From contig NC_014829.1 in NCBI RefSeq assembly GCF_000177235.2, positions 2,976,001-3,040,000 on the forward strand: 64,000 bases of DNA, written 5' to 3'. The stretch's first letter is position 1. The number at the start of each line of letters is the position of its first letter. Below the pieces are notes generated by a model, which saw only the letters and a list, made by a program, of their open reading frames with translations, made no database searches and was not told the DNA's origin. Positions 33,791-50,408 of this stretch are shown here, one piece after another. This DNA is from Evansella cellulosilytica DSM 2522. GTDB taxonomy: Bacteria; Bacillota; Bacilli; Bacillales; Salisediminibacteriaceae. A program made the position numbers and the translations under genes.

Positions 33791-33818
33791 ACCCTCATGA
33801 AATCTAATGCATAGTCTA
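33791..33818 (+). promoter_or_regulatory. Sigma-K-type promoter of the ATP-grasp/racemase operon
   Basis: AC at 33791-33792 and CATAGTCTA at 33810-33818 are separated by 17 bases. This fits the sigma-K consensus AC-N16/17-CATANNNTA at every fixed base, 56 bases upstream of the first ATP-grasp gene. Confidence 0.6.
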
Positions 33819-33873
33819 AAGAAGACAAGATTTGCTTAAGGTTGTTTGATTATCTTGTAAAGGTGTGACTTCA

Positions 33874-34995
33874 TTGAATATTAATCCTTACATCGGTGTT
33901 TTACTAAATCAGAAAACAATTAACAGACTTCTAAAAAAACAAAAATTACTAAAAAAAAATTTAAAAATATACTATTTAGTAGAGCGGAATAAAAATATGA
34001 ATACAAAGCTTTACTTTTTTTCATTAAAAAATATCGATTATTTACAATTAAGAATAAAGGGGACTTTCTACAATTGGAAAAAAGAACGATGGGAACAAAG
34101 GCATTTTCCATTTCCAGATGTTTTTTACAATCGCGTTGCTAAAGGATTAGAGAGTAAGACAACTCATATTATAGTATTTAAAAGAAAGCTGAATGAATTA
34201 AATGTAAAGCAAATAAATCCAAAACATGACTTTAATAAATGGGAATTATATGAAAAACTCTCAAAAGGTAGAAGAGGAAAAATTAAGTTACCAAAAACTG
34301 TTTTATTTCAAGAAAAAGAGAGCCTTAATAACATGCTTAAAAAATATACTTCTGTATACGTAAAAGACGTTAAAGGTAGACGTGGAAAGAGTGTGCTAAA
34401 AATAACAAAGCTTAATAATGGTCAGTTTGAGTGTAAACAATTCACATCTAGAGTCAAAACCATTACGCTGGGTAATTTAGACGAAACACTGCAATATATA
34501 AAAACAATTTTTACAAAGAAAAATTTCATTATTCAGCAAGCAATTCAGTTAGAAACATATAAAGACGCCATTTTTGACATGCGTGCGGAAGTTCAACGAA
34601 ACGGAAAAGGAAAATTGGTTGTTGCCGGCATACCTGTAAGAGTTGCTCATAGCAATTCACCTGTAACAAGCTCTAGAACGAAAACAAATATTTTCCCTTT
34701 CAAACAATTTTTCGTTAATAAACTTGGTTACTCAACAAAACAATACCTCGATTTCAATGAAAAAGTGACGACTTTTCTTGAAAATGTCTATAGGAGCGTA
34801 GAGAAAAAATATGGTAGGTTTGGTGAACTAGGTATTGATTTCGCTTTAGATAAGAAAGGAAACTTATGGTTAATTGAATGTAATGCAACATCCGGTAAAA
34901 GAGCCTTCATACAAGCATATGATGATCAATCGATTCAAAACCTACAAGGTAATGTACTATCTTATGCTAAATGGTTAGTACGCACAAACCATTAA
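33874..34995 (+). CDS. YheC/YheD-type ATP-grasp protein 1
   Basis: A 373-residue protein of the endospore-coat-associated YheC/YheD family. The N-terminal ~100 residues hold the family's FPFPDVFYNR motif. The ATP-grasp region includes FNKWELYEKL (about 128-137), the nucleotide-binding VYVKDVKGRRGKSVLKI (about 165-181), FIIQQAI (about 220), DMRAEVQRNG (about 236) and the metal-binding GIDFALDKKGNLWLIECNA (about 323-341). ATP-grasp enzymes join a carboxylate to an amine or thiol through an acyl phosphate. The natural substrate of this family is not known. TTG 33874 has AAAGGTG eight bases upstream, and GTG 33865 abuts that site. It lies behind a sigma-K-type promoter and heads an operon with a racemase and two relatives. 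Confidence 0.82.
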   Translation: MNINPYIGVLLNQKTINRLLKKQKLLKKNLKIYYLVERNKNMNTKLYFFSLKNIDYLQLRIKGTFYNWKKERWEQRHFPFPDVFYNRVAKGLESKTTHIIVFKRKLNELNVKQINPKHDFNKWELYEKLSKGRRGKIKLPKTVLFQEKESLNNMLKKYTSVYVKDVKGRRGKSVLKITKLNNGQFECKQFTSRVKTITLGNLDETLQYIKTIFTKKNFIIQQAIQLETYKDAIFDMRAEVQRNGKGKLVVAGIPVRVAHSNSPVTSSRTKTNIFPFKQFFVNKLGYSTKQYLDFNEKVTTFLENVYRSVEKKYGRFGELGIDFALDKKGNLWLIECNATSGKRAFIQAYDDQSIQNLQGNVLSYAKWLVRTNH

Positions 34996-35024
34996 TTTAA
35001 GTTAGGAAAATGGAGTTGTTAATA

Positions 35025-35735
35025 ATGAACAAAAACAGCAGAACAATTGGTATATTAGGTGGGATGGGACCAATGGCAACTGTTGATTTATTCAAAAAGA
35101 TAGTAAATGAATCAGGGGCAGAAAGGGATCAAGATCACCATAAAATTATTATATTTAATAATCCTAAAATCCCATCAAGGAGTGAAGCAATATTAAAGGG
35201 GATGAATACCGCTTTTCCACAATTGTTAAAATCAGCTAAAACATTGGAAGCTGCTGGTGCTGATTTTATCATCATCCCATGTCATACTGCCCATTATTGG
35301 TTCAGAGAACTACAAGACCAACTAAATATCCCTATTATTAATATGATAGATAATACTGTAAATTATATAAATAGCTTAACAAAAAATGAATCTCAGAAAG
35401 TTCTTATATTGGCTACTAGAGGAACTATCTATTCAAAAATATTTCAAAATGAATTCATGATAAAAAGAATTCCTTACGTTGTACCGAATAGTGAAGAACA
35501 AGAGATTGTTTCAAAAGCAATTGATTTTACTAAGTCAAACTTAGTTGAAACGAACCCGTATATCAGTAAGTTAAATAACATGATAGATAACTATATCACA
35601 GGTAACCATATAACTTGTATTCTAGCTGGATGTACAGAGATCTCCTTATTACTTCCCTATTTAACTCATAAATGTTCAAAAATAGACTCATCCTTACTAC
35701 TGGCAAAAAGAGCCATAAATGAAGCAAATCAGTGA
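35025..35735 (+). CDS. Aspartate/glutamate racemase family protein
   Basis: A 236-residue PLP-independent racemase. The N-terminal signature is IGILGGMGPMATVDLFKKIV. The two catalytic cysteines are in FIIIPCHTAHYW (about C84) and ILAGCTEISLL (about C203), both preserved. Such enzymes interconvert L- and D-aspartate or glutamate (some act on other amino acids). The ATG at 35025 has GGAG nine bases upstream, and the in-frame ATG at 35010 lies too close to its AGGA. It is placed between two ATP-grasp genes in one operon, which suggests it supplies a D-amino acid to the ligases. That link is inference. Confidence 0.88.
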   Translation: MNKNSRTIGILGGMGPMATVDLFKKIVNESGAERDQDHHKIIIFNNPKIPSRSEAILKGMNTAFPQLLKSAKTLEAAGADFIIIPCHTAHYWFRELQDQLNIPIINMIDNTVNYINSLTKNESQKVLILATRGTIYSKIFQNEFMIKRIPYVVPNSEEQEIVSKAIDFTKSNLVETNPYISKLNNMIDNYITGNHITCILAGCTEISLLLPYLTHKCSKIDSSLLLAKRAINEANQ

Positions 35736-35776
35736 AAATTTCTATTGTATCTATTATATAAAGGAAGGGGATTCAA

Positions 35777-36874
35777 ATGAGCATGGTACAGGCAAGTACG
35801 AAGGAAAATTTCACGAATATTGGCGTATTGGTTAGAAAAAGTGTAAGAAAGAAATTATTAAAGCAAACCCCAACACCAATATTCCATATTATTCAAGAAA
35901 CATCACAAAAAGTAAGAAATATTAATTTGTATATGTTTTCAAAATCTAATATTGACTTTGATAACTCTTCTATTATAGGAGTAGCTTACAATCCATTAAA
36001 AAAAGAATATGAAGAAAAAAAATTCCCTATACCACATGTAATGTATAGAAGAACAAGTGAATTATCAGATTCATTTATTGAAAAGGTTAGAAATAATGGG
36101 ACTAAATTTATAAATTCTCCAAAGGGGTTTAATAATTGGGTAGCATATAATCATTTAAATCAATCCCCAGACTTACAAAAACATTTACCCTTCACTAAAA
36201 TATGCAAAGATGTTGATGAAATTAAAACGATTTTCAACTTTACAAATAAAATCTATGTTAAATCTCTCGTAGGTGGTCGCGGAAAACATGTAATGAAAAT
36301 TAAAAAGATCCCCTTCGAAGGTTATTTTTGTAGTTACTTTAATAGAAAGTTATTTCAATTCCACTATAAACACTACTCTTCTTTAAAAAAACACCTCCTA
36401 TCATTTTATAATGATCATTTTATCATACAGGAAGCTATAGATTTACTCAGTACAGATGATAGACCTATCGATTTACGCGCTGAACTACAAAGAAACGGAA
36501 ATGGCATTGTCACAATAACTGGTATCTCGGCCAGAAGGGGAGAGCAATATTCTCCTATTACAACCCACTCCGATAGCTATTCGTTAGAGGAGTTTTGCAG
36601 AAATAAACTTAACTACTCTGATGACAAACTTATCTCTTTTCACACAAAGGTTTCTAGCTTTTTAAAAGAAATATATGAAGAAATGGAAAAAATTTATGGT
36701 CAATGTGGTGAAATGGGAATTGACTTTGCTCTTGATAGACATGAAAATCTCTTCTTTATAGAATGTAACTCCAGAAGTACAAAGGTTTCATTAAAGAAAG
36801 CATACGGTGAAGAAGTTATAAAGCAGTCTTTTGTTGATTTGTGGAAATATGCTAAATACATTTCCACCAAATAA
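35777..36874 (+). CDS. YheC/YheD-type ATP-grasp protein 2
   Basis: A 365-residue paralogue of the protein encoded at 33874. It shares FPIPHVMYRR in the N-terminal part, FNNWVAYNHL (about 118), KIYVKSLVGGRGKHVMKI (about 158-175), FIIQEAI, DLRAELQRNG (about 232) and the metal-binding GIDFALDRHENLFFIECNS (about 313-331). The ATP-grasp residues look complete. The start at 35777 has AAGGAAGGGG upstream. The 41-base gap after the racemase holds no terminator, so it is co-transcribed. Its substrates are unknown. Confidence 0.82.
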   Translation: MSMVQASTKENFTNIGVLVRKSVRKKLLKQTPTPIFHIIQETSQKVRNINLYMFSKSNIDFDNSSIIGVAYNPLKKEYEEKKFPIPHVMYRRTSELSDSFIEKVRNNGTKFINSPKGFNNWVAYNHLNQSPDLQKHLPFTKICKDVDEIKTIFNFTNKIYVKSLVGGRGKHVMKIKKIPFEGYFCSYFNRKLFQFHYKHYSSLKKHLLSFYNDHFIIQEAIDLLSTDDRPIDLRAELQRNGNGIVTITGISARRGEQYSPITTHSDSYSLEEFCRNKLNYSDDKLISFHTKVSSFLKEIYEEMEKIYGQCGEMGIDFALDRHENLFFIECNSRSTKVSLKKAYGEEVIKQSFVDLWKYAKYISTK

Positions 36875-36908
36875 AGTTATTTTAGGTATTGAAAGGTGTC
36901 GATTTAAT

Positions 36909-38198
36909 ATGTGTAAATTAACTTTAGATAATAATATAAGTAAAAATAACATACACATGAATGGTACTACAAAGCAAAAAATAAGTAGTTCCAAAGTAAC
37001 TCTAAAATATGGAAACTTTTCAAAGGTTTATAAAGTGATAGAAGATAATGCACTTTCAACGGACGAGATAAAAATGAATGGTCAAATTACTAAGCGGCTT
37101 ACGTTCCCCACTATTCCTCTAACTATCATGATTAGAGAAAATTCCATCAATATCGGTCCTGTTATTGGATACTTGACAACAAAGCAGTATTGCAAAGATC
37201 CATCCCTTTTAATTTCCCGTTTTTCTGGTGCTTCAATAGATGGATTAGTTTATATTTTTCACAAAAATTCTGTCAATAAAAAAGAGAAAACAATAAAAGG
37301 TCTATACTTCGATAAAGAAACAAAAACATTTAAAAAAGGGGTTTTTCCATACCCTAGTGTAGTTTACAATCGTTCAAATAGAATTAGAAGCTTATATAGG
37401 CACTTTAAGAAGGAGATTGGAGATAATTTTTTTAACTATCCCTTCCGAATAAACAAATGGAGATTATGGAGGTATATGGAAAACCATACTAGTATAGTCA
37501 AACATTTACCTTATACAGAAAAATACAACAGCTCAGAGCAACTAGATATTTTACTAAATAAGTATAAAAATCTTTATTTAAAACCTACAAACCTATCTAA
37601 GGGAAGAGGGATTTTATATATTCAAAAAAACAAAAGTGGCTATACTGTTACAAATCGTTTTAATAAAACAATTAATATAAAAAATAAATTGGAGTTAGAG
37701 AAATACTTGAACAAGAATATTAAGAGAAAATATATTATACAGGAGGAAATCCCTTTTCAATATAAGGATAATAAAATGGATTTTCGCATTTACATTCAAA
37801 AGGATGAATCGAAAAACTGGAGGTACACTGGTGGTGAAGCAAAAGTTGGTAAAAAAGGAACCATTGTTACAAACTCAAGGTACAGAGAAAAAATATTAAC
37901 AGCGAAGGAAGCTTTGACCAATGTATTCAAAATGAGTGACAATAAAGCAAATAAAAAGTTAAAAGAAATATCAAAACTCTGTATTAGTATGTTAAAGGTA
38001 ATTGAGAATAAAGGTTATACAATAGGGGATTCTGCTATTGACTTAATAATAGACAATAACCAAAATGTGAAAATATTAGAGGTTCAATTAAATTATCGAG
38101 CAGATGCTAAAGCACTCAGAACAGAGGATGAACAAAGAGTATTACCATTTATACTCCCTACTCCATTAAAATACGCAAAAAAGTTAGCAGGTTTTTAG
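36909..38198 (+). CDS. YheC/YheD-type ATP-grasp protein 3, with N-terminal domain
   Basis: A 429-residue member with a longer N-terminal half (about 1-130) before the family motif FPYPSVVYNR. The ATP-grasp part has INKWRLWRYM, LYLKPTNLSKGRGILYI, YIIQEEIPF and DFRIYIQKDE. The metal-binding end differs from its relatives: it reads LEVQLNY where the others have IECNA, IECNS or IEANI, so the usual Asn of the ExN pair is Gln. It may bind metal differently or be catalytically altered. The ATG at 36909 follows AAAGGTG. An earlier in-frame ATG at 36831 lies inside gene 2 and is disfavoured. It is the last gene of the operon before a strong terminator. Confidence 0.8.
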   Translation: MCKLTLDNNISKNNIHMNGTTKQKISSSKVTLKYGNFSKVYKVIEDNALSTDEIKMNGQITKRLTFPTIPLTIMIRENSINIGPVIGYLTTKQYCKDPSLLISRFSGASIDGLVYIFHKNSVNKKEKTIKGLYFDKETKTFKKGVFPYPSVVYNRSNRIRSLYRHFKKEIGDNFFNYPFRINKWRLWRYMENHTSIVKHLPYTEKYNSSEQLDILLNKYKNLYLKPTNLSKGRGILYIQKNKSGYTVTNRFNKTINIKNKLELEKYLNKNIKRKYIIQEEIPFQYKDNKMDFRIYIQKDESKNWRYTGGEAKVGKKGTIVTNSRYREKILTAKEALTNVFKMSDNKANKKLKEISKLCISMLKVIENKGYTIGDSAIDLIIDNNQNVKILEVQLNYRADAKALRTEDEQRVLPFILPTPLKYAKKLAGF

Positions 38199-38210
38199 TA
38201 AGCATCCGAG

Positions 38211-38254
38211 GTTGACTCAAAAGGTGGATTTTAACATTTTGAGTCAACTTTTTT
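38211..38254 (+). terminator. Terminator of the ATP-grasp operon
   Basis: GTTGACTCAAAA pairs perfectly with TTTTGAGTCAAC and is followed by six T residues. The remaining gene-free DNA to 38541 is AT-rich. I see no gene, RNA or clear promoter in it. Confidence 0.92.
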
Positions 38255-38541
38255 GCAATACACAGCTAATGTAACCATTTCAAACTTTCAAGCGTATTCT
38301 CGTGTAGAGATATTCTCATATTTTTCTTCTTGTTCCTGCTTGCTTTCGTATGTACATTACATTCATTTAATCTAGCTGTACGTAAGAAAACATCTTAACA
38401 TTATTGTAAAAATGATCAGGTCCTATAGATATTATCTACTAGGTGTTTAGCACTTTAAACTTATACATAAAATACTATAAAAATATAAGCAGGACCAGAG
38501 TATTCATTTCCCTGATCCATTAATTTAATAATGCTATCATG

Positions 38542-39629
38542 TTATAAGTTTTTCTTCAGACGCTGCTCCTGTTTATGGCTTTCAATAGCAAGCGCAATCA
38601 TTTTATTCACAAGATCCTTATATGGTAAACCACTTACTTCCCATAATTTAGGGTACATACTTAGTTTAGTGAAGCCCGGCAGTGTATTTATTTCGTTAAC
38701 AAAAAGGTTCCCTTCTTTCGTCAAAAAGAAATCAACTCTGGCTACACCATTACATTGTAAGGCTTTAAATGCTTTTATTGCCTCTTTTTTTACTTTCTCT
38801 ACATCATCTCCGTCTAATTCTGCAGGGACTTTTAATTGAACACCACCGGAATTTATATACTTTGCATCATAGGAGTAAAAGGAATCAGTGAACAAAACTT
38901 CACCTGGTAAAGAGGCAATAGGATCTTCATTACCTAATACTGCACATTCTATTTCTCTACCTTTTATTTCTTCCTCAATCACAATTTTATTATCGTAACG
39001 AAAAGCTTCATCGACAGCCATATAAAACTTTTTCTTCTCATAAACTTTACTAATCCCTACAGAAGAACCTTGATTAGCGGGTTTAACAAAAACTGGTGTA
39101 CCCAAGTTCTCTTTCACTTTTTCATAATCTATATTTCCCTTCCTATCTTTTGTATAAGCAAAATATTTACCTATAAATAGTCCCGCTTCACTTAACAACT
39201 TTTTTGAAACTTCTTTATCCATGCTTACAGCAGAACCTAACACACTAGGACCAATAAAAGGTTTTCCCATTAAACGGAGTAAGCCTTGAATGCTCCCATC
39301 CTCGCCATAGGAACCATGTAAAATCGGAAAAATGACATCAATGTTTCCAAGACTTCTTCCATCTGGAGTTGTAAAAAAGCAGTCATGTTCACCAAGTACA
39401 ATATTTACCCTTTGGTCTGAAGGAATCATTTCAATTAGTTTAGGATTGTCCATATTTCGTAGATAATTATTTGGATCTAGTAAATACCACTTCCCATTTT
39501 TGTCTATCCCTATTAAAACCAATTCATATTTATTTTTATCAATCGCTTCTATGATACTTTTTGCTGATTGAAGCGAGATTTGATGTTCAGAAGATTTCCC
39601 ACCAAAAATTATGCCTACTTTTTTTTCAT
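38542..39629 (-). CDS. ddl: D-alanine-D-alanine ligase paralogue, frameshifted near its start
   Basis: About 362 codons if the frame is restored. The body has Ddl motifs: ILHGSYGEDGSIQGLL, the ATP loop KPANQGSSVGISKV, the tyrosine-bearing loop FYSYDAKY and NEINTLPGFTKLSMYP. This fits a D-Ala-D-Ala rather than a VanA-type D-Ala-D-Lac enzyme. A strong GAGGAGAGG leads to ATG 39629. The reading then runs through eight A residues into a TAG, while the expected N-terminus (VGIIFGGKSSEHQISLQ) continues in the -1 frame. The junction A-AAA-AAG is a classical -1 slippery site. The next in-frame codon that could start is TTG 39522. The gene may be made by frameshifting or slippage, be a pseudogene, or reflect a homopolymer sequencing error. 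It pairs with the upstream MurF-like gene. Confidence 0.75.
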
Positions 39630-39658
39630 CGAACCTCTCCTCGTAATATCGTACTATT

Positions 39659-40768
39659 TTATTTTTTCAGACTGTTCCTTGCTATATATTCAGCAGTTCT
39701 ACTCATTTTCATTTTATGTGAACCTTTTATTAAAACAACACAACCTTCATTTAATACTCTTAAAATACCGTAATGTAATTTATCACGATTGGTAGTATGC
39801 AAGATGTTTTTCTCTGGGATACCATTTTCTATAGCTGCAGTTTTCACATAGGATGCATTTTTTCCATATAAAAAAACATGTTTAATTCCCTTCTTGGCTA
39901 AATATGCACCTACCTCTTGGTGCCCTTTCTTTGAGTAATCCCCAAGTTCTAGCATACTTCCTAATACTGCTATTTTTTTCTTTTTATTGCCTAATTCTGC
40001 TAGAACATCTACCGCAGCCTTAACAGATTGCGGGTTTGCATTAAATGTATCATCAATTAATAGTGCACCCTTTGGCTTTGATAGTTTTATAACATTAACT
40101 CTCCTACTAGGAGACTTACAGCTCCTTAATCCTAATTTCATTTCATTAATAGAAAAATTAAGTCTGTCAGCTATTGCAATAGCAAATAAAGCATTTATTA
40201 CATTATGCATACCAAACGCTGGAATAAAGAAGTATACTTTCTTTCCTCTTAAAGTTACTCCAAATATCATTCCATAACTTGTATACTTAATATTAGTAGC
40301 CTGATATTCAGATTTTGATGTAATACCAACTCTAATTAAGTCTCCTTTAAAATTTTTATAATCAAGCAACTTTGAATTTGTGTCATCATTGTTTAACAAG
40401 AGTATTCCTCTAGGATGTATATTTCTTATCATCGCAGATTTTGCTTTTGCAGTTTCTTTAATGCTATTACCTAATTTCCCATAATGTGCGGTACCGACAT
40501 TAGTGATAACCCCAATGTTTGGTTGAATATAATTGAAATGATTACTGGCTCTCCCTAAGCCCATTTCAAGTACAATGGCTTTATGATTACGGTTGAATTG
40601 ACTAACTGCTTGTTTCGTATGCTTTGGTAAATTCATATTCCCCTTTGTTGTCAGTACGTTTTTCCACCTAGTATTGAAGATTGCATTTATAAAACTAGTT
40701 GTAGAAGATTTTCCTGCACTACCTGTAACCCCTACTGCTGGTACCCTTGGTATAATAGGTTTCATCAT
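39659..40768 (-). CDS. MurF-like ligase lacking the N-terminal domain
   Basis: A 369-residue Mur-ligase-family protein. The ATP loop is GVTGSAGKSSTTSF (about 13-26). Central-domain motifs LEMGLGR and NVGTAHYGKLGN follow, then DDTFNANPQSVKAAVDVL (about 230-247) and VLGSMLELGDYSKKGH, both MurF-like. MurF (about 455 residues) adds D-Ala-D-Ala to UDP-MurNAc-tripeptide. Here the N-terminal ~80-residue UDP-substrate domain is missing, so the acceptor is probably not the normal precursor, or is held differently. The ATG at 40768 has GAAGGAGG upstream, so the short form is the real one. It lies 29 bases before the Ddl paralogue and probably uses its dipeptide product. Confidence 0.82.
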   Translation of the reverse strand: MMKPIIPRVPAVGVTGSAGKSSTTSFINAIFNTRWKNVLTTKGNMNLPKHTKQAVSQFNRNHKAIVLEMGLGRASNHFNYIQPNIGVITNVGTAHYGKLGNSIKETAKAKSAMIRNIHPRGILLLNNDDTNSKLLDYKNFKGDLIRVGITSKSEYQATNIKYTSYGMIFGVTLRGKKVYFFIPAFGMHNVINALFAIAIADRLNFSINEMKLGLRSCKSPSRRVNVIKLSKPKGALLIDDTFNANPQSVKAAVDVLAELGNKKKKIAVLGSMLELGDYSKKGHQEVGAYLAKKGIKHVFLYGKNASYVKTAAIENGIPEKNILHTTNRDKLHYGILRVLNEGCVVLIKGSHKMKMSRTAEYIARNSLKK

Positions 40769-40991
40769 GAATCCTCCTTCAATAGTTTATAATTTATTTT
40801 ATTTTTAATTCGAAAGCTTGTGCATTATAAATCCCCTACATATGGAAGAAACAGGCTAACAACTGATGATATTGTTGAAATAAAACGCTCGTTACTTTAC
40901 TCCTGTATCATGTCCTGTTGCCTTTTCCGAAAGGAGTTCAGTATCACTAGCTTCCATTAGCTATGTATATGTTCTTAAAGCTATTATTAAA

Positions 40992-41030
40992 GGGAGACTC
41001 AATAGGTAAAAATCTACCTTTGGGTCTCCC
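40992..41030 (-). terminator. Terminator downstream of the 41-residue peptide gene
   Basis: GGGAGACTC pairs with GGGTCTCCC through wobble, with an inner AGGTA/TACCT stem. It closely resembles the hairpin at 266-306. T residues follow on both strands. Confidence 0.65.
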
Positions 41031-41045
41031 TTTTCTTTCATTTCA

Positions 41046-41171
41046 CTATATACTTTTCTTCTTTTTTACATTCTGGCCGCACCCACAACCACGAATTCGT
41101 TGTTTTTGTTGTGTAGCTGAAGGGCGTAAAATTCTCTTTTTCGTAGATGAACTTCGAATCTTTTTATACAC
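41046..41171 (-). CDS. 41-residue basic peptide with a CGCG motif, candidate sporulation gene
   Basis: A short frame of 41 residues. It is rich in Lys/Arg/Ser, with GCGCGQN at about 28-34 and a KKKKSI end. Support comes from GTG 41171, which has GGGGTG six bases upstream, a sigma-K-like promoter at 41207-41233 giving a leader of about 28 bases, and a terminator behind the stop. I know no family. The composition recalls small basic cysteine-containing spore proteins. It could be a coat component, or conceivably a substrate of the nearby ATP-grasp enzymes, but nothing shows this directly. An ATG seven codons upstream is possible but lacks a ribosome-binding site. Confidence 0.55.
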   Translation of the reverse strand: MYKKIRSSSTKKRILRPSATQQKQRIRGCGCGQNVKKKKSI

Positions 41172-41206
41172 TTTTAACACCCCAAATTTCATATTAATAT
41201 AGTATC

Positions 41207-41233
41207 TAGTTTATGATAGGGGTGTGAAATGGT
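41207..41233 (-). promoter_or_regulatory. Sigma-K-type promoter of the 41-residue peptide gene
   Basis: On the minus strand AC (41233-41232), 16 bases, then CATAAACTA (41215-41207), a full match to AC-N16-CATANNNTA. Confidence 0.5.
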
Positions 41234-41243
41234 TCATCCCATT

Positions 41244-41786
41244 CTATTCTTTATTCTTGATGTTCTTCCCTCTAGCTCTTCTTCTTCTCTTTTGTATTAC
41301 AAAGGAATCATGAAAGATGTTATTCTTAAAATTAACCTCGGAAACGTCTTTTTTAGGTATATGCTTTAAATTATTTCGGAACCATCCGTCATCATCCTCA
41401 TTAATCTTATTCTCTCTTAACGTATCCCTGTTTTCATTTAAAGAATGCGATTGTACGAGTTCTTTTATTTTATGATCCTTATCCTTAACTTCTTCTAAGA
41501 GCATCATTAATTTTTCATCCTTCTCAAATAGTTCTCTTTTTAGTAACTCATACTCCATTCTCAATGACTCCAAATCCGAGTAATACTTTTCATTTAGCTT
41601 TTTACTTTTCTCGAATTGTTTCTGTAGTTCCTTATGTCTAATATTCAATTCTGTTAGCAATACGTGATGATAATTGCCCTCATACTCCTTTACCTTTTGT
41701 TTATATTTTGACATCTCCGACTCCAAATGTAACACACGCTGCTTTAACTGAATAAGTGTGTCTCTCAATTTCCTCTCCACCCCCAT
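41244..41786 (-). CDS. Coiled-coil protein with basic tail, candidate coat protein
   Basis: A 180-residue protein whose first ~115 residues are a long heptad-rich coiled coil (LIQLKQRVLHLESEMSKYKQ to EVKDKDHKIKELVQ). An acidic linker NEDDDGW and a basic C-terminus with KRRRRARGKN follow. I recognise no family. Coiled coils with Arg/Lys-rich tails are common among coat morphogenetic proteins, and the neighbours fit that, but function is unproven. The ATG at 41786 has AGAGG eleven bases upstream. The sigma-K-like promoter of the next small gene begins just past its stop. Confidence 0.7.
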   Translation of the reverse strand: MGVERKLRDTLIQLKQRVLHLESEMSKYKQKVKEYEGNYHHVLLTELNIRHKELQKQFEKSKKLNEKYYSDLESLRMEYELLKRELFEKDEKLMMLLEEVKDKDHKIKELVQSHSLNENRDTLRENKINEDDDGWFRNNLKHIPKKDVSEVNFKNNIFHDSFVIQKRRRRARGKNIKNKE

Positions 41787-41930: not shown

Positions 41931-41976
41931 AAGTAGTTCAGTAGAACAACCTAGATTTAAAGAGAGGATGAAAACG

Positions 41977-42675
41977 ATGAGTAAATTTGAACGTATGTGT
42001 ATTAAAGTTCCAAAGGTATACGACTGGATTACTCACCAGGCAGAAAAACAATTCCAATTTGATCAAGATGATCTTGATTTTTTTACAGTTGAAGATCCTG
42101 CATTACAAACGACAGACACATTAGTGGACGATGTTTGTGCATACTTCCTTCCAGAAACAGTAAAGGTCGATGCACAGCTGTTAATTCCAGAACCGAAAAA
42201 GTGGATGAAGCATGACGGTGATGATATTTGTCAGGAGGTTGGAGAAAGAGAAGATTTCTTTTACGATGAGTTAGATGCAAACCTTCAAATCGTCAAGCTT
42301 CAAAAGCAAGGCGAGTTTCAAATCATCTTAAGTGCAGATAAACTTCCTCCACTTTACTCTGAGCCAATTCCGTTTTTCAAACTCGAAAAAGTAGTGCTTT
42401 GTGCACCTGAAGGAACGGATGTTGTCTGCGATGTGTATGATATCGTTGCTGATGGTTCATTCGTGTGTAACGGTGATGGCACGGAATGGACAATCGACTT
42501 ATCCCTATTAATCTGCCAATCTATACAAGCAGAGGCGATAGTAAAGGTGGAAGTAGAAGGCAAGCATTGTAAACCAAGAGAGGAAATTCCGCTACCAATA
42601 GTGACAAAAGAATGCCCAGATTTTGAATTTCCACCACAATGTCCAACAGTTTTTCCTCGACCTCATAAAAAATAA
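41977..42675 (+). CDS. Unrecognised acidic protein, candidate spore outer-layer component
   Basis: A 232-residue protein without signal peptide or membrane segment. It begins MSKFERMCIKVPKVYDWITH and is acidic in its first half (FDQDDLDFFTVEDP, KHDGDDICQEVGEREDFF). It has about eight cysteines, a beta-rich middle (QIILSADKLPPLYSEPIPFFKLEKV) and a proline-rich end (PPQCPTVFPRPHKK). I do not recognise a named family. Cys-bearing, Pro-terminated proteins of this size occur in spore coats and exosporia. It has its own sigma-K-like promoter and a strong terminator, so it is a single-gene unit. The ATG at 41977 has GAGAGG nine bases upstream. Confidence 0.75.
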   Translation: MSKFERMCIKVPKVYDWITHQAEKQFQFDQDDLDFFTVEDPALQTTDTLVDDVCAYFLPETVKVDAQLLIPEPKKWMKHDGDDICQEVGEREDFFYDELDANLQIVKLQKQGEFQIILSADKLPPLYSEPIPFFKLEKVVLCAPEGTDVVCDVYDIVADGSFVCNGDGTEWTIDLSLLICQSIQAEAIVKVEVEGKHCKPREEIPLPIVTKECPDFEFPPQCPTVFPRPHKK

Positions 42676-42722
42676 TAAATATGATAAGGTTGGATTAATC
42701 AGAAGGACATGATAGCAATACA

Positions 42723-42776: not shown

Positions 42777-42839
42777 AACGCTTATTAGCTCCTTGAAATA
42801 TATTAATACATAAATGGAGATAAGTAGGTGACAAAAGAA

Positions 42840-43508
42840 ATGAGTAAAAGAAATAATCAGCTTGAAAACAAAAGAAAAAAAATAATGGCAAATTATGAAA
42901 GCGAAATTAAACGATTATATAAGCTACTACAACAATCACAAAAAATATGGACGAATGTCGATCCAATTAAGGAAGCGAATCCGAATCAATTATTATTTAG
43001 ATCAAACGAATATAACAACGGCTCATCACTGAATATAGACGTAGAAAAAAACATATCGATTTTGCCATACTTTCATTTTGTAACTTTTTTACCTGAACAA
43101 GGTGAAGAAGAAACATTAGTCCTCGGGAATTTTTCAATAAAAAATGAAGGGAACTCCCCCCTCAAGCAACCTATCATTTGTATACGGATTTCTCCGCCAA
43201 AAGCTGCACACCTTAGTGGAAAAATTTTAATGATGCATCGTAATGACCAAGTCATAACCGACGCAGAGGAGGAGTGGACACATGTCTACCGTGATTGGAA
43301 AAAAAGAATCCAACATCATGGTGAGTATTGGCTTCAACCATTACATTGCAATGAGATCAATCCAAACGAAACGCTAACATTTTCAAACTTTGAAATAAGA
43401 ATACGAAAAAAAAATAATATAAGTAACATAAACATTGATGGCTATGTTTTCAGTGAAGCCTCTTCCGAAGGATTCCCGGCTTTAAACAACATATCATTTC
43501 GTCTGTAA
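42840..43508 (+). CDS. Unrecognised protein, first gene of the cotS-type operon
   Basis: A 222-residue soluble protein. A basic, helical N-terminus (SKRNNQLENKRKKIMANYESEIKRLYKLLQQ) precedes a beta-rich domain from about 65, with FHFVTFLPEQGEEETLVLGNFSIKNEG (about 77-103), a pattern like a small immunoglobulin-type or fibronectin-like sandwich. I know no family. It starts an operon with an ATP-grasp protein, a CotS-like kinase and glycosyltransferases, the next gene lying two bases on. A sporulation-surface role is therefore likely but inferred. ATG 42840 has AGGTGA eight bases upstream, and the in-frame GTG at 42828 overlaps that site. Confidence 0.7.
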   Translation: MSKRNNQLENKRKKIMANYESEIKRLYKLLQQSQKIWTNVDPIKEANPNQLLFRSNEYNNGSSLNIDVEKNISILPYFHFVTFLPEQGEEETLVLGNFSIKNEGNSPLKQPIICIRISPPKAAHLSGKILMMHRNDQVITDAEEEWTHVYRDWKKRIQHHGEYWLQPLHCNEINPNETLTFSNFEIRIRKKNNISNINIDGYVFSEASSEGFPALNNISFRL

Positions 43509-43510
43509 TC

Positions 43511-44305
43511 ATGTACTCGAGAGGAGGGATTCCTATTTATCACTGTAAGAATAAACAACACCAATATCATGTATTAGGATCAAATGAAGTCATTAAACCG
43601 TTCTTACCAGAAACGAAACCCTACTCTAAAATAGCTTTGCGAACTATTTTATTCAAATATAATGAAGCTATGATTAAGCCGACAATCGGATCAAGTGGAT
43701 CTGGCATCATAAAAGTACGCATGAGTAACAATGAAAGGTATGACGTTTTTTTCAAAGATTCACAACAATCTTTTTCTAGGTTATTGTCTGTTCATGCATA
43801 TATTAAAAGTCAGATAAAAAAATATGCTCGAAAGAAATCTTCGAGCTCGTTTATTATTCAACAGGTAATCCCACTAATAGAAATTGACGGTGACCCTGTA
43901 GATATACGTGTCATTGTTCAACGCACGAAAGAAAACCAATGGCAAGTATCTGGTAAGTATGCAAGAAAAGCGCGGAATCAGTTATTTACTACAAATTTAA
44001 AACAAGGTGGTACAGCCTTTAACTTGAAGGACGCTCTACACTTCGCTTATCTTCCCACTCGAGAGATACAAGTATTGGAAAAGAAAATCGATGATCTTTC
44101 GCTCACCGTTGTCGGTCATCTTTCTCATATTTGGAAGGTGGAGCACGTTTGGGGTATCGATTTAGGGTTAGATAAGAAAGGGCATTTATGGATTATTGAA
44201 GCTAATATTCGTCCAAGGTTTCGAGGCTTTAAAGAGGTTGATCGTCACACTTATGAAAAAATAGATGCCCTTATGACATGGCATAATAACAAACATGACG
44301 ACTAA
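43511..44305 (+). CDS. YheC/YheD-type ATP-grasp protein 4, short form
   Basis: A 264-residue protein that is essentially the ATP-grasp domain alone. The nucleotide loop is MIKPTIGSSGSGIIKVRM (about 54-71). FIIQQVIPL (about 116), DIRVIVQRTKENQWQVSGKYAR (about 131-152) and the metal-binding WGIDLGLDKKGHLWIIEANIRPR (about 216-238) follow. The N-terminal domain of the three other members is absent. ATG 43511 is two bases after the previous stop but lacks a ribosome-binding site. A strong GAGGAGGG lies inside the first codons and would suit the rare ATT at 43535. Translational coupling is the simpler reading. Confidence 0.8.
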   Translation: MYSRGGIPIYHCKNKQHQYHVLGSNEVIKPFLPETKPYSKIALRTILFKYNEAMIKPTIGSSGSGIIKVRMSNNERYDVFFKDSQQSFSRLLSVHAYIKSQIKKYARKKSSSSFIIQQVIPLIEIDGDPVDIRVIVQRTKENQWQVSGKYARKARNQLFTTNLKQGGTAFNLKDALHFAYLPTREIQVLEKKIDDLSLTVVGHLSHIWKVEHVWGIDLGLDKKGHLWIIEANIRPRFRGFKEVDRHTYEKIDALMTWHNNKHDD

Positions 44306-44323
44306 TTGGTGGTGATACCAGAA

Positions 44324-45376
44324 ATGAACAAAAGTACGCTAAATATACAAGATGTCGAAAAATTACTTGAATTAGTAGAACGGTTATATACATTTAACAT
44401 ACACTCCTATAAAATCTTAAAAGTCGCAACAAAGCGATTTATCATTAAGCTGCATACATCCCATGGCACGTTTATTTTAAAGAAACCTAGACTCCCAGAA
44501 AGAAGGTTTCTATTCTTCATTGAAGCGCAAGCGTATTTAAGTAAAAATCAAGTGGATATACCGTCAATCATAAAAACTAGAGACAATAGTTTGTATTTTC
44601 AGTATAAAGATGAAAAAATGGTCATTTACAAATATATTGAGCACGTTACTAATACTAATCTCACCAATAAACAATTGATTACCGGAATACAAGCATTAGC
44701 CTCTTTCCATAAAGCATCACTTACCTTTAAACCGATTGATCAAAATTACAAAGCATATTCGATCTACGATTGGATTACGGAGTATAACAGTAAAATAATA
44801 AATATAGAACGATTTCCTCGCGATATACCGAAAGAGAATAGGCAGTCTAAATCCGTCAAATGTATAAACAAATATACAGCACAGTTTTCGACTTATGGAA
44901 AGAAGGTAATGCAATTAACTCATGATCTTTCCTATTCACATGATGACCCTAAAAACCATTTCCCTTATTTAGGACACGGCGATTTTACAATAGACAACTT
45001 ATTATGGACGAAGGACAATACGTTTATTATTGACTTAGATAATATGAGCTACCATTTTCCATCTAGAGATTTTAGCCGTTACTTGTTTACGTACTATAAA
45101 CGCTACCAAACTTTCGATACCGACCTTCTCCATCAATTACTATCATGCTATAAACAAATAAATAACCTCTCCACAGTAGAAGAACAATTATTTTTACTGG
45201 ATCTCATATTTCCGCATCAATTTGAACGCATTATGAGAAAGCGTTTATACAAAAAAATGACATTAATAGAATTAGAAAGATTAATATTTTGTGAAATGAA
45301 GAAAACGAAGTACTTATTACATTTATATACAAAAACATTTGGAAGTGAGAATCGTGAAAAAAATCGCTTTTATTAG
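44324..45376 (+). CDS. CotS-family spore coat kinase-like protein
   Basis: A 350-residue protein of the aminoglycoside-phosphotransferase/choline-kinase fold used by the CotS, CotI and YtaA coat family. An N-lobe with FIIKLHTSHGTFILKKP (about 42-58) is followed by the catalytic loop YLGHGDFTIDNLLW (about 217-230) and the metal-binding IIDLDNMSYHFPSRDF (about 237-252). CotS proteins are deposited in the coat, and the substrate of their kinase fold is not established. The next gene is a GT4 glycosyltransferase like CotSA, matching the B. subtilis cotSA-cotS pairing. ATG 44324 has GGTGGTG nine bases upstream. Upstream in-frame TTG and GTG codons overlap that site. Confidence 0.85.
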   Translation: MNKSTLNIQDVEKLLELVERLYTFNIHSYKILKVATKRFIIKLHTSHGTFILKKPRLPERRFLFFIEAQAYLSKNQVDIPSIIKTRDNSLYFQYKDEKMVIYKYIEHVTNTNLTNKQLITGIQALASFHKASLTFKPIDQNYKAYSIYDWITEYNSKIINIERFPRDIPKENRQSKSVKCINKYTAQFSTYGKKVMQLTHDLSYSHDDPKNHFPYLGHGDFTIDNLLWTKDNTFIIDLDNMSYHFPSRDFSRYLFTYYKRYQTFDTDLLHQLLSCYKQINNLSTVEEQLFLLDLIFPHQFERIMRKRLYKKMTLIELERLIFCEMKKTKYLLHLYTKTFGSENREKNRFY

Positions 45377-46421: not shown

Positions 46422-46452
46422 TATAACCGACTATGTATGTTTTAGGAGGACG

Positions 46453-47250
46453 ATGATGATGAAAACACCCTTAGTAACAGTAGTCATTCCTTCATATAAT
46501 AAAGCAAAGTTTATTATAAAAGCGATCAAAAGTGTTCAAAATCAAAGTTTAAAGCATTGGAAGGCTTTGATCATTGATGATGCATCCACAGATGCTACGG
46601 AAAATATTGTATTACCAATCATAAAGGATGACCGAAGATTCAACTATATCAAATTAGAAAAAAACATCGGAATATCTGCAGTATTACAATACGCTTTGAA
46701 TAAGATAGATACAAAATACTTCGTACAGCTCGATGGAGATGATTGGTTAGAGAAGGATGCATTACAGCTATTAGTTCATAAAATGGAAACGTCTAGCGAA
46801 AATGCAGCTGTTGCGTACGGAAATCTCGTTCGCTGGCAACAGTTAAAAAAGAAAAAGCGCAAAAAATTGATTACCCATAAACAGCTACAGGATAAGTACG
46901 ACTTTATTACTTATCATCCAATGTTTTACCCTCGTTTTTATAAAACAGATGCTGTCAAAGCAGTTGGTGGATGGTCGACAAATGTACCACATGGTGGCAG
47001 GTATTCTGAGGACCGACAAATCTTATTAAAGCTTATCCCTCACTTTTCCTTTTTACATGTCAATGAACACTTATATAATCATCGCATACACGACACGAAC
47101 AATAGCGGTAAAGAAAACCTAGATAAATATGCTCAAGTCAATCGCTATCTTTATGAAAAAGCACTAAAAGATTGGGGTAATGAATATGAGCCAGTTTTCA
47201 CGTGGATAAACGGACGCTTGAAAGTAAAGAAACTAAATAAGAAAACATAA
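46453..47250 (+). CDS. GT2 family glycosyltransferase
   Basis: A 265-residue GT-A enzyme. The nucleotide-binding start is VTVVIPSYNKAKFIIKAIKSVQNQSLKHWKALIIDDASTD (about 7-46) and the metal-binding LDGDDWLEKDAL at about 92-103. A GGWSTNVPHGGRYSEDRQI stretch holds the acceptor and catalytic-base region. It is the last gene of the operon that begins at 42840, with AGGAGG upstream of a run of three ATG codons (46453, 46456 and 46459 are all possible starts). Its terminator is the first hairpin of the following tandem array. Donor and acceptor are unknown. Confidence 0.88.
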   Translation: MMMKTPLVTVVIPSYNKAKFIIKAIKSVQNQSLKHWKALIIDDASTDATENIVLPIIKDDRRFNYIKLEKNIGISAVLQYALNKIDTKYFVQLDGDDWLEKDALQLLVHKMETSSENAAVAYGNLVRWQQLKKKKRKKLITHKQLQDKYDFITYHPMFYPRFYKTDAVKAVGGWSTNVPHGGRYSEDRQILLKLIPHFSFLHVNEHLYNHRIHDTNNSGKENLDKYAQVNRYLYEKALKDWGNEYEPVFTWINGRLKVKKLNKKT

Positions 47251-47853
47251 AACCGAGCTTGGTAAAGCTCGGTTTTATGTTTTCTTATAAGCGGTGTAGA
47301 AATGATGCCACATGTTTTTAAAGTAGTAGTGAGTGCTCTTCTCACTACTACGCGTGGCATCATTTCCACCGCAAATTTTATACTCTCTGGTCTTTTAAGA
47401 AAAACTAAAACCGAGCTTGGTAAAGCTCGGTTTTATGTTTTCTTATATGCGGTGTAGAAATGATGCCACATGTTTTTAAAGTAGTAGTGATGCTCTTCTC
47501 ACTACTACGCGTGGCATCATTTCCACCGCAAATTTTATACTCTCTGGTCTTTTAAGAAAAACTAAAACCGAGCTTGGTAAAGCTCGGTTTTATGTTTTCT
47601 TATATGCGGTGTAGAAATGATGCCACATGTTTTTAAAGTAGTAGTGAGTGCTCTTCTCACTACTACGCGTGGCATCATTTCCACCGCAAATTTTATACTC
47701 TCTGGTCTTTTAAGAAAAACTAAAACCGAGCTTGGTAAAGCTCGGTTTTATGTTTTCTTATAAGCGGTGTAGAAATGATGCCACATGTTTTTAAAGTAGT
47801 AGTGAGTGCTCTTCTCACTACTACGCGTGGCATCATTTCCACCGCAAAATTTA
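47243..47853 (+). repeat. Tandem array of four ~158-bp terminator-plus-palindrome units
   Basis: Units are marked by CCGAGC at 47253, 47411, 47568 and 47726 (spacing 158, 157 and 158). Each has a terminator hairpin (CCGAGC...GCTCGG within ATAAAA/TTTTAT). A palindrome with arms GCGGTGTAGAAATGATGCC and GGCATCATTTCCACCGC around GTAGTAGTGAG/CTCACTACTAC follows, and then a TTTTATACTCTCTGG spacer. The palindrome is the one found at 20.2 kb, but the terminator and spacer are specific to this locus. The gap between the two flanking genes (47251-47917) contains only this array. Confidence 0.95.
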
Positions 47854-47917
47854 TATTCTCCAGTCTTCCTCTTCATCATCTGATACAACTTCAACAATGA
47901 GTACATTAAGTTTTGAG

Positions 47918-48604
47918 TTATTTATACCTTGATGTCACGATTGATTCATAATCATCAGTATATTGGATATTCTTTTTTTTCAAAAACTTAGCATTTTCTA
48001 TTTTCCACGTATGCTCCTCTTCGTTTTTTCTAATAAGTATATAGTTATTTTTAGAAGTGGAATAAATCTTAAAACGTTCTTTTCTGCAATCGTATTGAAA
48101 TTGCATATCTGATCCTGCTTTTTGACTACTGAACTTTATCTTATTTGCGACACATTTTTTAAATGTCAACGTTCCTCCAGAAACAAATCGAACATACTCA
48201 TTTTCCTTACCATCATGAAACGTTGTCAACGCCTTGTCATGGTAAATATAAACGTAAATTGAAGCCTTGCCAACAATCATTGCATTTGTCTGTTTAAAGG
48301 CATTCATCGCCTCTGCCAAATAATACGGGGAATAGTAATCATCATCATCAAACTTAGCAATATAATCATACGAAGCTTTTGTTATACCAAAATTCAAACA
48401 TTCTCCTAAAGAATAGTACTCTGGCAATTGAAATATGGTTACTCTGTTATCCAGTGCAGCCTTTTTTTTCCATAAATCAATATTCATCTCATCTTTGTTC
48501 AATATGACGATTAATTCCTTTTCAAGCCATGTTTGATGTTCAAACTGTTTAAAAACACTTTCCATTTGCTCTTGACGTATTGTACATGTGATGATAGATA
48601 CCAA
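47918..48604 (-). CDS. GT2-type glycosyltransferase, paralogue a
   Basis: A 228-residue short GT-A protein. It starts MVSIITCTIRQEQMESVFKQFEHQTW, and the metal-binding acidic cluster FDDDDYYSPYYLAEAM lies at about 92-107. It is a clear paralogue of the next minus-strand protein (same length, shared CT.R, HQTW..KELI.ILN and FDDDD.YSP.YL.EAM.AF). Sugar donor and acceptor are unknown. TTG 48604 has GGAGGG eight bases upstream. The acidic cluster has four consecutive Asp, longer than the usual DxD. Confidence 0.82.
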   Translation of the reverse strand: MVSIITCTIRQEQMESVFKQFEHQTWLEKELIVILNKDEMNIDLWKKKAALDNRVTIFQLPEYYSLGECLNFGITKASYDYIAKFDDDDYYSPYYLAEAMNAFKQTNAMIVGKASIYVYIYHDKALTTFHDGKENEYVRFVSGGTLTFKKCVANKIKFSSQKAGSDMQFQYDCRKERFKIYSTSKNNYILIRKNEEEHTWKIENAKFLKKKNIQYTDDYESIVTSRYK

Positions 48605-48645
48605 TATGATTGCCCTCCAAATCTAGCTTGCTACGATTATGAATT

Positions 48646-49332
48646 TTATTTAGTGGAAGTAACTAACTTCTCGTAATTTTTTGTTTTGATGATAGAAATA
48701 CAACCTTCCTTTAGACGATCATTTTTTTCCGTCTGCTTACTAATATCGTTTCTCAAGCAAACAAAATTTTCTTTGTTTGTCGAAAATATTTTATAGCCAT
48801 GTTTTTGACACTGTAAAAAAAATCCTCCATCCTCCCCTCTATTTAAATCTGGAAATTGTATATTTTTATAAATACGTTTATTAAACACAATTGTTGCTCC
48901 TCTCACAGAATGAACATACTTACCTTCAAATCCAGGATGATGGATTCCTAATTCCTGACTATTGATAAAATACGTATAAACGGTCCTTTTCCCGACTACC
49001 AGCGCTTCTGTTGTACGAAAAGCATGCATTGCTTCATCTAAATAAAAGGGAGAATAGAAGTCATCATCGTCAAATTTCGCTATATAATTGTACCTCGCCT
49101 TTGAAACGGCAAAATTAATACATGAACCTAACGTTGTTTTTTCTGGGAGCTGATACACCTTAATCTTTTCTTGATATTGGCTAACGTACTTCAAGCATTG
49201 TTCTAAGTTCATTTTGTCATTATTTAATATAATGATGAGCTCTTTTTTCTGCCACGTTTGATGAAGAAAATTCCGAATCATATTTTCCATACAATCTTCT
49301 CTCATCGTGCAAGTAATAACAGAGACGTTCAT
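48646..49332 (-). CDS. GT2-type glycosyltransferase, paralogue b
   Basis: A 228-residue protein that is a tandem duplicate of the one at 47918. MNVSVITCTMREDCMENMIRNFLHQTW is at the start and FDDDDFYSPFYLDEAMHAF at about 92-110. A PDLNRGEDGGFFLQCQKHGYKIF region probably supplies the acceptor site. It is the first gene of a two-gene minus-strand unit, transcribed away from the epimerase. ATG 49332 has AGAGAGGG upstream. Two closely related short transferases may add successive sugars to the same acceptor. Confidence 0.82.
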   Translation of the reverse strand: MNVSVITCTMREDCMENMIRNFLHQTWQKKELIIILNNDKMNLEQCLKYVSQYQEKIKVYQLPEKTTLGSCINFAVSKARYNYIAKFDDDDFYSPFYLDEAMHAFRTTEALVVGKRTVYTYFINSQELGIHHPGFEGKYVHSVRGATIVFNKRIYKNIQFPDLNRGEDGGFFLQCQKHGYKIFSTNKENFVCLRNDISKQTEKNDRLKEGCISIIKTKNYEKLVTSTK

Positions 49333-49460
49333 ATTTTATCCCTCTCTTGTCGTAGTTAAATGAACCATTTTTTAATTGATTTCCTATACAACTCACCACC
49401 ATTGAAATCGTCAATATGATGTAAAAGATACTAATTTTAGTTTTTGGCGGTGATGATGAC

Positions 49461-50408
49461 ATGAAAATCTTAGTGACAGGGGCAGCTGGTTTTATCGGAT
49501 CCCACTTATGCGAAACCCTCCTCATAAATAAAAACTATCATGTAGTCGGGATAGATGGATATATCAACAATTCTCTTGACGAAGAGAAAAGAGGGTTAAT
49601 AAATCGTTTATTGAAAAATGAGCGCTTTACATTTTATGAAGAAAACATGTTAAATATTTCATGGGACAATGTAATTAGTGAGATAGATGTGATTTATCAT
49701 TTAGCTGGCATACCTGGAGTAAGAGCAAGCTGGGGAGAAAATTTCAACGATTATGTGATTCATAATATTCAAGCTACACAAAGACTTCTAGAAGCATGTA
49801 TAGACAAGCCACGTTTACAAAGGTTTATATATGCCTCTACCTCATCTGTTTATGGGGAAAAACATGGAAAAGTTTCTGAAGATGCAACACCTCGTCCACT
49901 TTCTCCTTATGGCGTAACGAAGTTAACATGTGAAAACTTATTCCGTATATATTATCAAACATATCGTCTACCAATAGTTATATTAAGGTACTTCACTGTA
50001 TTTGGACCGAGACAACGGGACGATATGGCTTTCCATATTTTTATTAAAAAAATGCTCTCTGAAGAAACAATTCCGGTATTTGGTGATGGACTTCAAACGA
50101 GAGATTTCACTTATATTCGAGATTGTATCGCTGCAACGATTTCTGCCCTTCATTCAGATAACGTGATAGGTGAAACAATAAATATTGGAGGAAAGGAACG
50201 AGCATCGATGATAGAAATCATCGAAATGCTTGAAGAAATCATTGGTAAAAGTGCAAAAGTTAATTTTCTAAAAAAAATACACGGCGAACCGAAGCATACT
50301 TGGGCAAACATAAATAAGGCGCAACGTTTATTAAACTACAATCCGACTACGAAATTAAAGGAAGGGATAGAAAATGAAGTAAAATATATTCGAGAACTAT
50401 ATAGGTAA
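49461..50408 (+). CDS. NAD-dependent sugar-nucleotide epimerase (GalE-like)
   Basis: A 315-residue extended-SDR enzyme. The NAD-binding start is ILVTGAAGFIGSHLCETLL (about 3-21), with YHLAGIPGVRASW at about 79-91. The catalytic Ser is in YASTSSVYGE, and the YxxxK pair is in SPYGVTKLTCENL (about 149-161). DFTYIRDC and GETINIGG follow in the substrate domain. It would make UDP-galactose, UDP-galacturonate or a similar sugar for the neighbouring glycosyltransferases. The start at 49461 follows GGCGGTGATGATG. The exact sugar is not determinable from sequence alone. Confidence 0.87.
   Translation: MKILVTGAAGFIGSHLCETLLINKNYHVVGIDGYINNSLDEEKRGLINRLLKNERFTFYEENMLNISWDNVISEIDVIYHLAGIPGVRASWGENFNDYVIHNIQATQRLLEACIDKPRLQRFIYASTSSVYGEKHGKVSEDATPRPLSPYGVTKLTCENLFRIYYQTYRLPIVILRYFTVFGPRQRDDMAFHIFIKKMLSEETIPVFGDGLQTRDFTYIRDCIAATISALHSDNVIGETINIGGKERASMIEIIEMLEEIIGKSAKVNFLKKIHGEPKHTWANINKAQRLLNYNPTTKLKEGIENEVKYIRELYR

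Follow-up and report, generated by a model that had tools for sequence, protein, structure and literature searches.

Why should a spore-forming bacterium keep an amino-acid racemase gene between genes for two ATP-grasp ligases of a spore-coat family, next to a MurF-like ligase and a second D-Ala-D-Ala ligase, and what might such a set of enzymes make? The question is raised by a 64,000-nucleotide stretch of Evansella cellulosilytica DSM 2522 (bases 2976001–3040000 of a 4.68-Mb single-contig genome, G000 in the comparisons below), which is called the window here. Domain calls with Pfam and NCBIfam gave four proteins in the window (yheA1 to yheA4) that belong to the YheC/YheD (YheC/D) family PF14398, with scores of 181–257 bits against a cut-off of 26.8, as an earlier note on this DNA had recognized. 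The genes yheA1, racemase, yheA2 and yheA3 are co-directional, with gaps of 14 nt and 41 nt around the racemase and then an overlap; murF2 and ddl2 lie 343 nt downstream on the opposite strand, convergent to this operon. We favour, with modest confidence, the reading that the left half of the locus (33.3–40.8 kb) is a conserved peptide-ligase module with a link to sporulation, here in an unfused form, and that the module provides a D-amino-acid peptide, made in the mother cell, for the spore surface; its reactions, substrates, acceptor, timing and place are all things that we infer.

Fusions of MurF2 to YheC/D proteins

The protein encoded by murF2 keeps the catalytic core (PF08245) and the C-terminal domain (PF02875) of Mur ligases, and 16 chosen positions of the core are invariant in 13 of 13 sequences. 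The Mur middle domain begins at residue 14 and the alignment to the MurF model TIGR01143 at model position 75, so that the absence of the domain for the UDP-linked substrate, described in the earlier note, is borne out. Identity as a full MurF was rejected, as the TIGR01143 score (249.9 bits) is under the cut-off of 288.6.

While the racemase, yheA3 and murF2 are separate genes in the window, the counterparts of yheA3 and murF2 form one protein of about 800 aa in eight other loci, including those of Siminovitchia terrae and Paenibacillus daejeonensis, and in seven of these a racemase gene lies 0–134 nt from the fusion. The window murF2 falls in one clade with all eight MurF2–YheC/D fusions (13 rows, SH-aLRT 99), and yheA3 groups likewise with the YheC/D halves of these proteins (15 rows, SH-aLRT 100), in quick maximum-likelihood trees made without bootstrap, that of murF2 with a warning on two long outgroup branches; yheA4 lies outside the clades of yheA1–3. 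By sequence, yheA3 would be the counterpart of the YheC/D half of the fusions, and because both ligases are fused into one protein and match the window genes by clade, the two ligases probably act on one substrate.

A second kind of fusion (about 730 aa) has the opposite domain order, YheC/D–MurF2. It is represented by 20 rows in a separate clade, is apparently of separate origin, and has an L-amino-acid-ligase-type ATP-grasp gene within 3 kb in 19 of the 20. At L149, L153, L212, L213 and similar loci, YheC/D–MurF fusions are clustered with several full-length Mur ligases as well as with genes of this ATP-grasp type. An AlphaFold model of one whole fusion (L038), made from two alignment rows, had a pLDDT of 45.9 and was not used.

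At E ≤ 1e-75, a murF2 search of 397 genomes of the order found 24 strong matches, counting that of the window, spread over 21 genomes; 15 of the matches are fused to YheC/D, seven more lie within 1.5 kb of a YheC/D gene, and two do neither. Of 398 genomes of the class, 86 have a match with E ≤ 1e-90, which scores at least 379 bits in 55 of the 86 (counted from the list); full-length Mur ligases begin below that score. A phylum sample of 299 genomes, some of the same class, gave three besides the window at E ≤ 1e-110, all of them from other classes. Altogether, 28 of 93 distinct murF2-type rows are YheC/D fusions, and a YheC/D gene lies within 3 kb of another 17; smaller numbers stand beside an S11 carboxypeptidase (6), Ddl alone (2) or NlpC/P60 alone (1). 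For the rows from L166–L190 the flanks covered in this count do not exceed about 1.5 kb. The co-occurrence of racemase, truncated MurF and YheC/D, one of the checks proposed in the earlier note, recurs in several families, often with two of the genes fused, and a lack of conservation in related genomes, which by that note would have refuted its reading, is not what was seen.

Two other Mur-type genes of the window genome were seen, either of which may be the housekeeping MurF. One, at L262:3124-4704 (−), has a hydrophobic, membrane-like N-terminal part and adjoins the other Ddl of the genome; the second, at L261:3214-4173 (−), is a 319-aa MurF-like open reading frame (ORF) that lies between murE and mraY and whose P-loop looks degenerate. 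At L215:8228-9430 (−), a glycosyltransferase with DUF3880 and LysM, which resembles the spore protein CgeB, adjoins a murF2-type gene, and L151 includes a CotZ-like ORF slightly below the Pfam cut-off.

A clade of racemases linked to YheC/D

The window racemase scores 173.1 bits against TIGR00035 (cut-off 93.1), and its C91, C208, R57 and K175 match two cysteines, an arginine and a lysine of 1JFL that we presume to have catalytic roles. Both cysteines and the lysine are kept in all 19 members of its clade, and the arginine in 17. It also exceeds the cut-off of NF052483, the cysteate racemase CuyB (204.5 bits, cut-off 190). This name was rejected as a ground for taking cysteate as the substrate, because the model also passes all ten other racemases scanned, including one of Thermococcus.

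A profile scan of the genome collection left 80 racemase loci, with flanks of up to 9 kb and many shorter. YheC/D relatives occur in the flanks of five of them, all of which rank in the top seven racemase matches. Nine of the 397 genomes of the order have close racemases, eight of them beside YheC/D or a MurF–YheC/D fusion. In a tree of 83 racemases, all 16 that are linked to YheC/D fall in one clade (SH-aLRT 98) of 20 rows, or 19 genes since L014 and L241 are one gene, and the window racemase sits inside it; the link is seen in none of the 63 rows outside, 30 of which have flanks of 3 kb or more on either side. The share of 16 in 20 should not be read as an unbiased rate, because the linked racemases L204, L205 and L210 entered solely through the MurF2 search. 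The tree leaves out 13 of the 80 loci, which gave no racemase match with the profile used, and L036, the same record as L158. A search of plasmids gave 209 matching records, all below 60% identity, and was not used.

The ATP-grasp proteins

The yheA1 protein is 49% identical to its counterpart in L011/L156 and gave no match to PDB sequences at E ≤ 1 with phmmer. In the yheA3 model, residues 1–25 of the called ORF have a pLDDT below 50, and the start is probably at 36909. Fold comparison, which barely covered the first 106 residues, placed this model nearest to LysX, RimK, ArgX, glutathione synthetase and TTLL, although identity to these is 8–18% among the matches listed.

The YheC and YheD proteins of B. 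subtilis belong to the same Pfam family as the window proteins. YheD encases the spore and its function is given as unknown (PMC7911427, in excerpt), and yheC and yheD belong to the sigma-E genes whose expression SpoIIID raises (PMC517825, in excerpt), which is a stage earlier than sigma-K. The excerpt of PMC7911427 describes no racemase or Mur partner for them, whereas the window has several paralogues together with such partners.

Ddl2, acylphosphatase and the family of the window

The Ddl paralogue of the earlier note is confirmed as such, since the genome has another Ddl, 37% identical. A murF2-type match was found in eight of 34 other genomes of the family, one of them weak (G019, 280 bits). 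Ddl2 lies 56–137 nt from murF2 in five genomes (the window, G021, G027, G015 and G014), and the Ddl2 proteins of the latter four are 57–59% identical to that of the window and 35–37% to the genome's other Ddl. A second murF2-type gene, with an in-frame stop, is found beside the Ddl2–murF2 pair in G027 (C1:2039143-2040228; L250, L252).

An acylphosphatase gene, absent from the earlier note, is present in four of these five loci (not in G015), near the module in L252 and L254, and in G021 (locus L156) Pfam finds it fused to the racemase. Across 165 loci (2.34 Mb) it occurs in four distinct places only, by a profile that was made from three of the copies it later found.

Links to sporulation and the spore coat

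The late mother-cell expression put forward in the earlier note is supported, indirectly, as sporulation timing. SpoIVA is present in 268 of the 398 class genomes, and these include all 55 genomes of murF2 type (compared by eye), a co-occurrence that follows lineage in part. Upstream motifs were sought with AC-N16/17-CATANNNTA, which we take to be the sigma-K consensus. Across 58 loci, 22 of 98 genes that open a module operon have a strict site within 200 nt, compared with 14 of 455 other first genes (p 1.7e-9); the figures are 11 of 78 versus 3 of 253 when CapA-type loci are left out (p 1.3e-5), and 4 of 31 versus 0 of 128 in the racemase loci alone (p 0.001), related upstream regions not being independent in these statistics. 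On the opposite strand the motif precedes 6 of 98 module genes and 20 of 455 others.

A second link is the morphogenetic spore coat protein of the BMQ_0737 family, which was also missing from the earlier note. It lies within 6 kb of the module in G000, G014 and G108, each time as the sole family match in the genome; it is 20 kb away in G021 and elsewhere in G015, G027 and G216, and there is none in five of the 12 genomes searched. The neighbouring orf226, for which neither a Pfam nor an NCBIfam family matched, is repeated with BMQ_0737 in G014, and relatives of both occur close to the racemase and the fusion of G108, which belongs to another family.

Small basic peptides with GCGCG were also observed. 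Besides the 48-aa ORF of the window (Table 1), L254:7107-7232 (−) encodes a similar one of 41 aa with GCGCG near its C end, and both are on the murF2–ddl2 strand and close to that pair (two of 22 loci, by eye). Such a peptide could possibly be an acceptor or a coat peptide.

Variation in the gene set

Several observations weigh against the module as proposed. Three members of the racemase clade have no YheC/D link (Cytobacillus depressus, Pelosinus and G009, the last being the ninth of the genomes with close racemases above), and the eighth MurF2–YheC/D fusion (L206) has no racemase nearby, a relative being elsewhere in its genome. Of the murF2-type rows, 28 are beside CapA without YheC/D and 11 are near none of the scored genes. 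The gene set is not invariant even close to the window: two Salipaludibacillus genomes (G024, G028) have the racemase and yheA3 and lack murF2, while G011, G014, G015, G027 and G034 have murF2 and no racemase at E ≤ 1e-20. Ddl2 and the acylphosphatase were seen solely in the window's family, so that the proposed co-occurrence of the Ddl paralogue with murF2 holds within that family. The called ddl2 ORF also lacks the N-terminal Gly-rich region, which is present upstream in frame, with no ATG, GTG or TTG, and it scores 442.5 bits against NF002525 (D-Ala-D-Ala ligase; cut-off 457) compared with 530.1 for a full-length relative. Since four relatives have a full-length Ddl2 (356–366 aa), the window gene may have another start, a sequence error or a damaged copy.

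The three sigma-K-type promoters of the earlier note did not stand as such. Among nine window genes tested, a strict site precedes yheA1 only, those of BMQ0737 and orf226 each needing one change to match the consensus, and the five strict sites in the window compare with 4.75 ± 2.4 expected by chance.

Alternative explanations

A modified peptidoglycan, in which ddl2–murF2 and the racemase would contribute to an altered stem peptide or cross-bridge in the spore cortex or germ-cell wall and the YheC/D proteins would be branch ligases, is considered unlikely. It would suit the D-Ala-D-Ala type enzymes of the locus and the S11 carboxypeptidase or NlpC/P60 genes that adjoin murF2 in some relatives, and there is a precedent in lactic acid bacteria, where one operon encodes both the racemase and the ATP-grasp ligase that form a D-Asp branch (RacD/AslA; PMC4155827, in excerpt). 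The likeness is one of gene arrangement; the acceptor there is a peptidoglycan precursor, but the module has a sporulation link and a Mur ligase without the N-terminal domain, which binds the precursor in Mur ligases (PMC11915815, in excerpt). The fusions and the BMQ_0737 neighbour, like the location of B. subtilis YheD, point to the coat. The adjacent murF2 and ddl2 are clear relatives of MurF and Ddl, yet they are paralogues of the genome's other copies and recur with YheC/D.

Less likely still is a cyanophycin-like storage or matrix polymer, branched and built by alternate action of an ATP-grasp and a Mur ligase as in CphA1, an enzyme that couples the two domains (PMC9262961, in excerpt). 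The enzymes would act together in both cases, in one chain in the window's relatives, and a spore role of cyanophycin has been proposed for Clostridium perfringens (cited in PMC5532821, in excerpt). The same excerpt describes tandem putative cyanophycin synthetases of Bacillus horikoshii without the Arg-adding residues and suggests a spore role for them. CphA1 identity was rejected, however, because TIGR02068 gave 32–82 bits in the proteins scanned (murF2 52.2, best relative 81.5), far under the cut-off of 850. The module also differs from CphA1 in its ATP-grasp family (PF14398), in a Mur part nearer to MurF, in separate ATP-grasp and Mur genes in the window, in the opposite domain order of one fusion type, and in having no third domain by Pfam in the five fusions scanned. 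An Asp-type racemase and a Ddl would be unexpected in such a pathway (cyanophycinase was not searched for).

A role of murF2 as a PgsB/CapB-like ligase in poly-gamma-glutamate-like synthesis is very doubtful. Other class members do have murF2-type genes beside CapA (PF09587) and NlpC/P60, but PgsB/CapB identity was rejected, with TIGR04012 at 30.7 bits (cut-off 222.7), no CapA lies within 3 kb of the window murF2, and the CapA-linked genes fall outside its clade. In L211, L217, L220 and L222–L240, stand-alone murF2-type genes are paired with CapA, often with NlpC/P60 as well, and many have sigma-K-type sites upstream; they may possibly be a separate sporulation polymer system.

It is hardly credible that a catabolic racemase, acting on aspartate or cysteate, lies by chance beside unrelated coat genes: YheC/D genes are indeed numerous (nine places in the window genome) and the racemase passes the NCBIfam cysteate-racemase cut-off, but that label does not discriminate, gene fusions join members of the module, and linked racemases occur in a single clade, where they make up 16 of 20 rows, against none of the 63 rows outside it.

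A possible pathway

If the left half is a peptide-ligase module of sporulation, as we favour, its working might be as follows. The racemase would supply a D-acidic amino acid, probably D-Asp, and yheA3, of RimK/LysX-like fold, would ligate amino acids onto a carrier without a UDP link, perhaps a coat peptide or protein. Ddl2 would make D-Ala-D-Ala, and murF2, which has the MurF catalytic and C-terminal domains and is without the domain that recognizes the UDP-linked cell-wall precursor, would attach it to the same product. Acyl-phosphate intermediates that stall may be discharged by the acylphosphatase. Synthesis would take place in the mother cell late in sporulation, and the product would then pass to the spore surface. 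A D-amino-acid peptide is a reasonable inference from this set of enzymes. More tentatively, and with some doubt, it could be speculated that this is an undescribed, spore-specific, non-ribosomal pathway in which a domain-stripped MurF is coupled to YheC/D, apparently twice and in opposite orders, and which with the racemase, Ddl and acylphosphatase builds a D-amino-acid peptide or polymer on a coat carrier.

The peptide part of the earlier proposal, a peptide or glycopeptide with D-amino acids, is thereby strengthened for the left half, and its glycan part found no support. A CotS-like kinase, a GT4, three GT2 enzymes and an epimerase are indeed in the window by Pfam and NCBIfam, the kinase scoring below the CotS cut-off (Table 1). 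Their inclusion in the same pathway was rejected, because no CotS, GT4 or epimerase relative was found within 3 kb of any of the 93 murF2-type genes (single-sequence profiles, E ≤ 1e-8; GT2 was not in the profile set); weak relatives lie further off in L032, L038, L137 and L150. CotS, the glycosyltransferases and the epimerase have the look of an ordinary set of coat-glycan genes.

Other features of the window

The features of the locus are collected in Table 1. No Pfam family matched the coiled-coil protein. Between two glycosyltransferase genes, at 47238–47867, a 158-bp unit is repeated four times in tandem (97% matching), with terminator-like inverted repeats inside it by eye. Matches to group II intron RNA (Rfam RF02001 and RF00029) are found at 1140–3106 (−).

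Table 1. Features of the locus, in window coordinates.
Feature	Position	Strand	Basis
Acylphosphatase, probable module member in the window's family	33348..33632	−	PF00708, 92.2 bits
Sigma-K-type promoter match upstream of yheA1	33791..33818	+	strict AC-N17-CATANNNTA, 74 nt before start codon
yheA1, YheC/D-type ATP-grasp	33865..34995	+	PF14398, 257 bits
Amino-acid racemase, aspartate-racemase type	35010..35735	+	PF01177, TIGR00035; aligns with 1JFL
yheA2, YheC/D-type ATP-grasp	35777..36874	+	PF14398, 225 bits
yheA3, YheC/D-type ATP-grasp	36831..38198, likely start 36909	+	PF14398, 182 bits; tree; model
ddl2, D-Ala-D-Ala ligase paralogue	38542..39522	−	PF07478/PF01820
murF2, MurF-type ligase without N-terminal UDP-precursor domain	39659..40768	−	PF08245 from residue 14, PF02875
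48-aa basic ORF with GCGCG, uncertain candidate coat peptide or acceptor	41046..41192	−	strict sigma-K-type match at 41233 (−)
Coiled-coil protein of unknown function, probable coat neighbour	41244..41786	−	32% relative in L254
BMQ_0737-family morphogenetic spore coat protein	41968..42675	+	NF052457, 180.9 bits, cut-off 71
orf226, neighbour recurring with BMQ_0737	42828..43508	+	gene neighbourhood
yheA4, short (264 aa) YheC/D-type ATP-grasp heading CotS/GT operon	43511..44305	+	PF14398, 181 bits
CotS/CotI-type kinase	44306-45376		TIGR02906, 148.2 bits, CotS cut-off 172.7

Implications

Iyer and colleagues' earlier genomic survey of ATP-grasp amidoligases may have noted YheC/D neighbourhoods. 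In the open-licence literature of PubMed Central, no description of a YheC/D–MurF fusion or of a YheC/D–racemase linkage was found, nor is the pairing described in the excerpts of PMC2922099 and PMC3533761. If the spore-specific pathway is true, the orphan YheC/YheD coat family gains a chemistry, and the fusion partners of YheC/D suggest what it could be for the YheD family, namely peptide-bond formation with D-residues. Few peptide synthetases are known in which a Mur ligase works together with an ATP-grasp enzyme, and a spore-specific ligase of this kind would join them; the MurF2–YheC/D fusions offer one- or two-gene systems that are open to purification and assay. For the organisms themselves, a D-amino-acid peptide on the spore could make a difference to protease resistance, permeability or germination.

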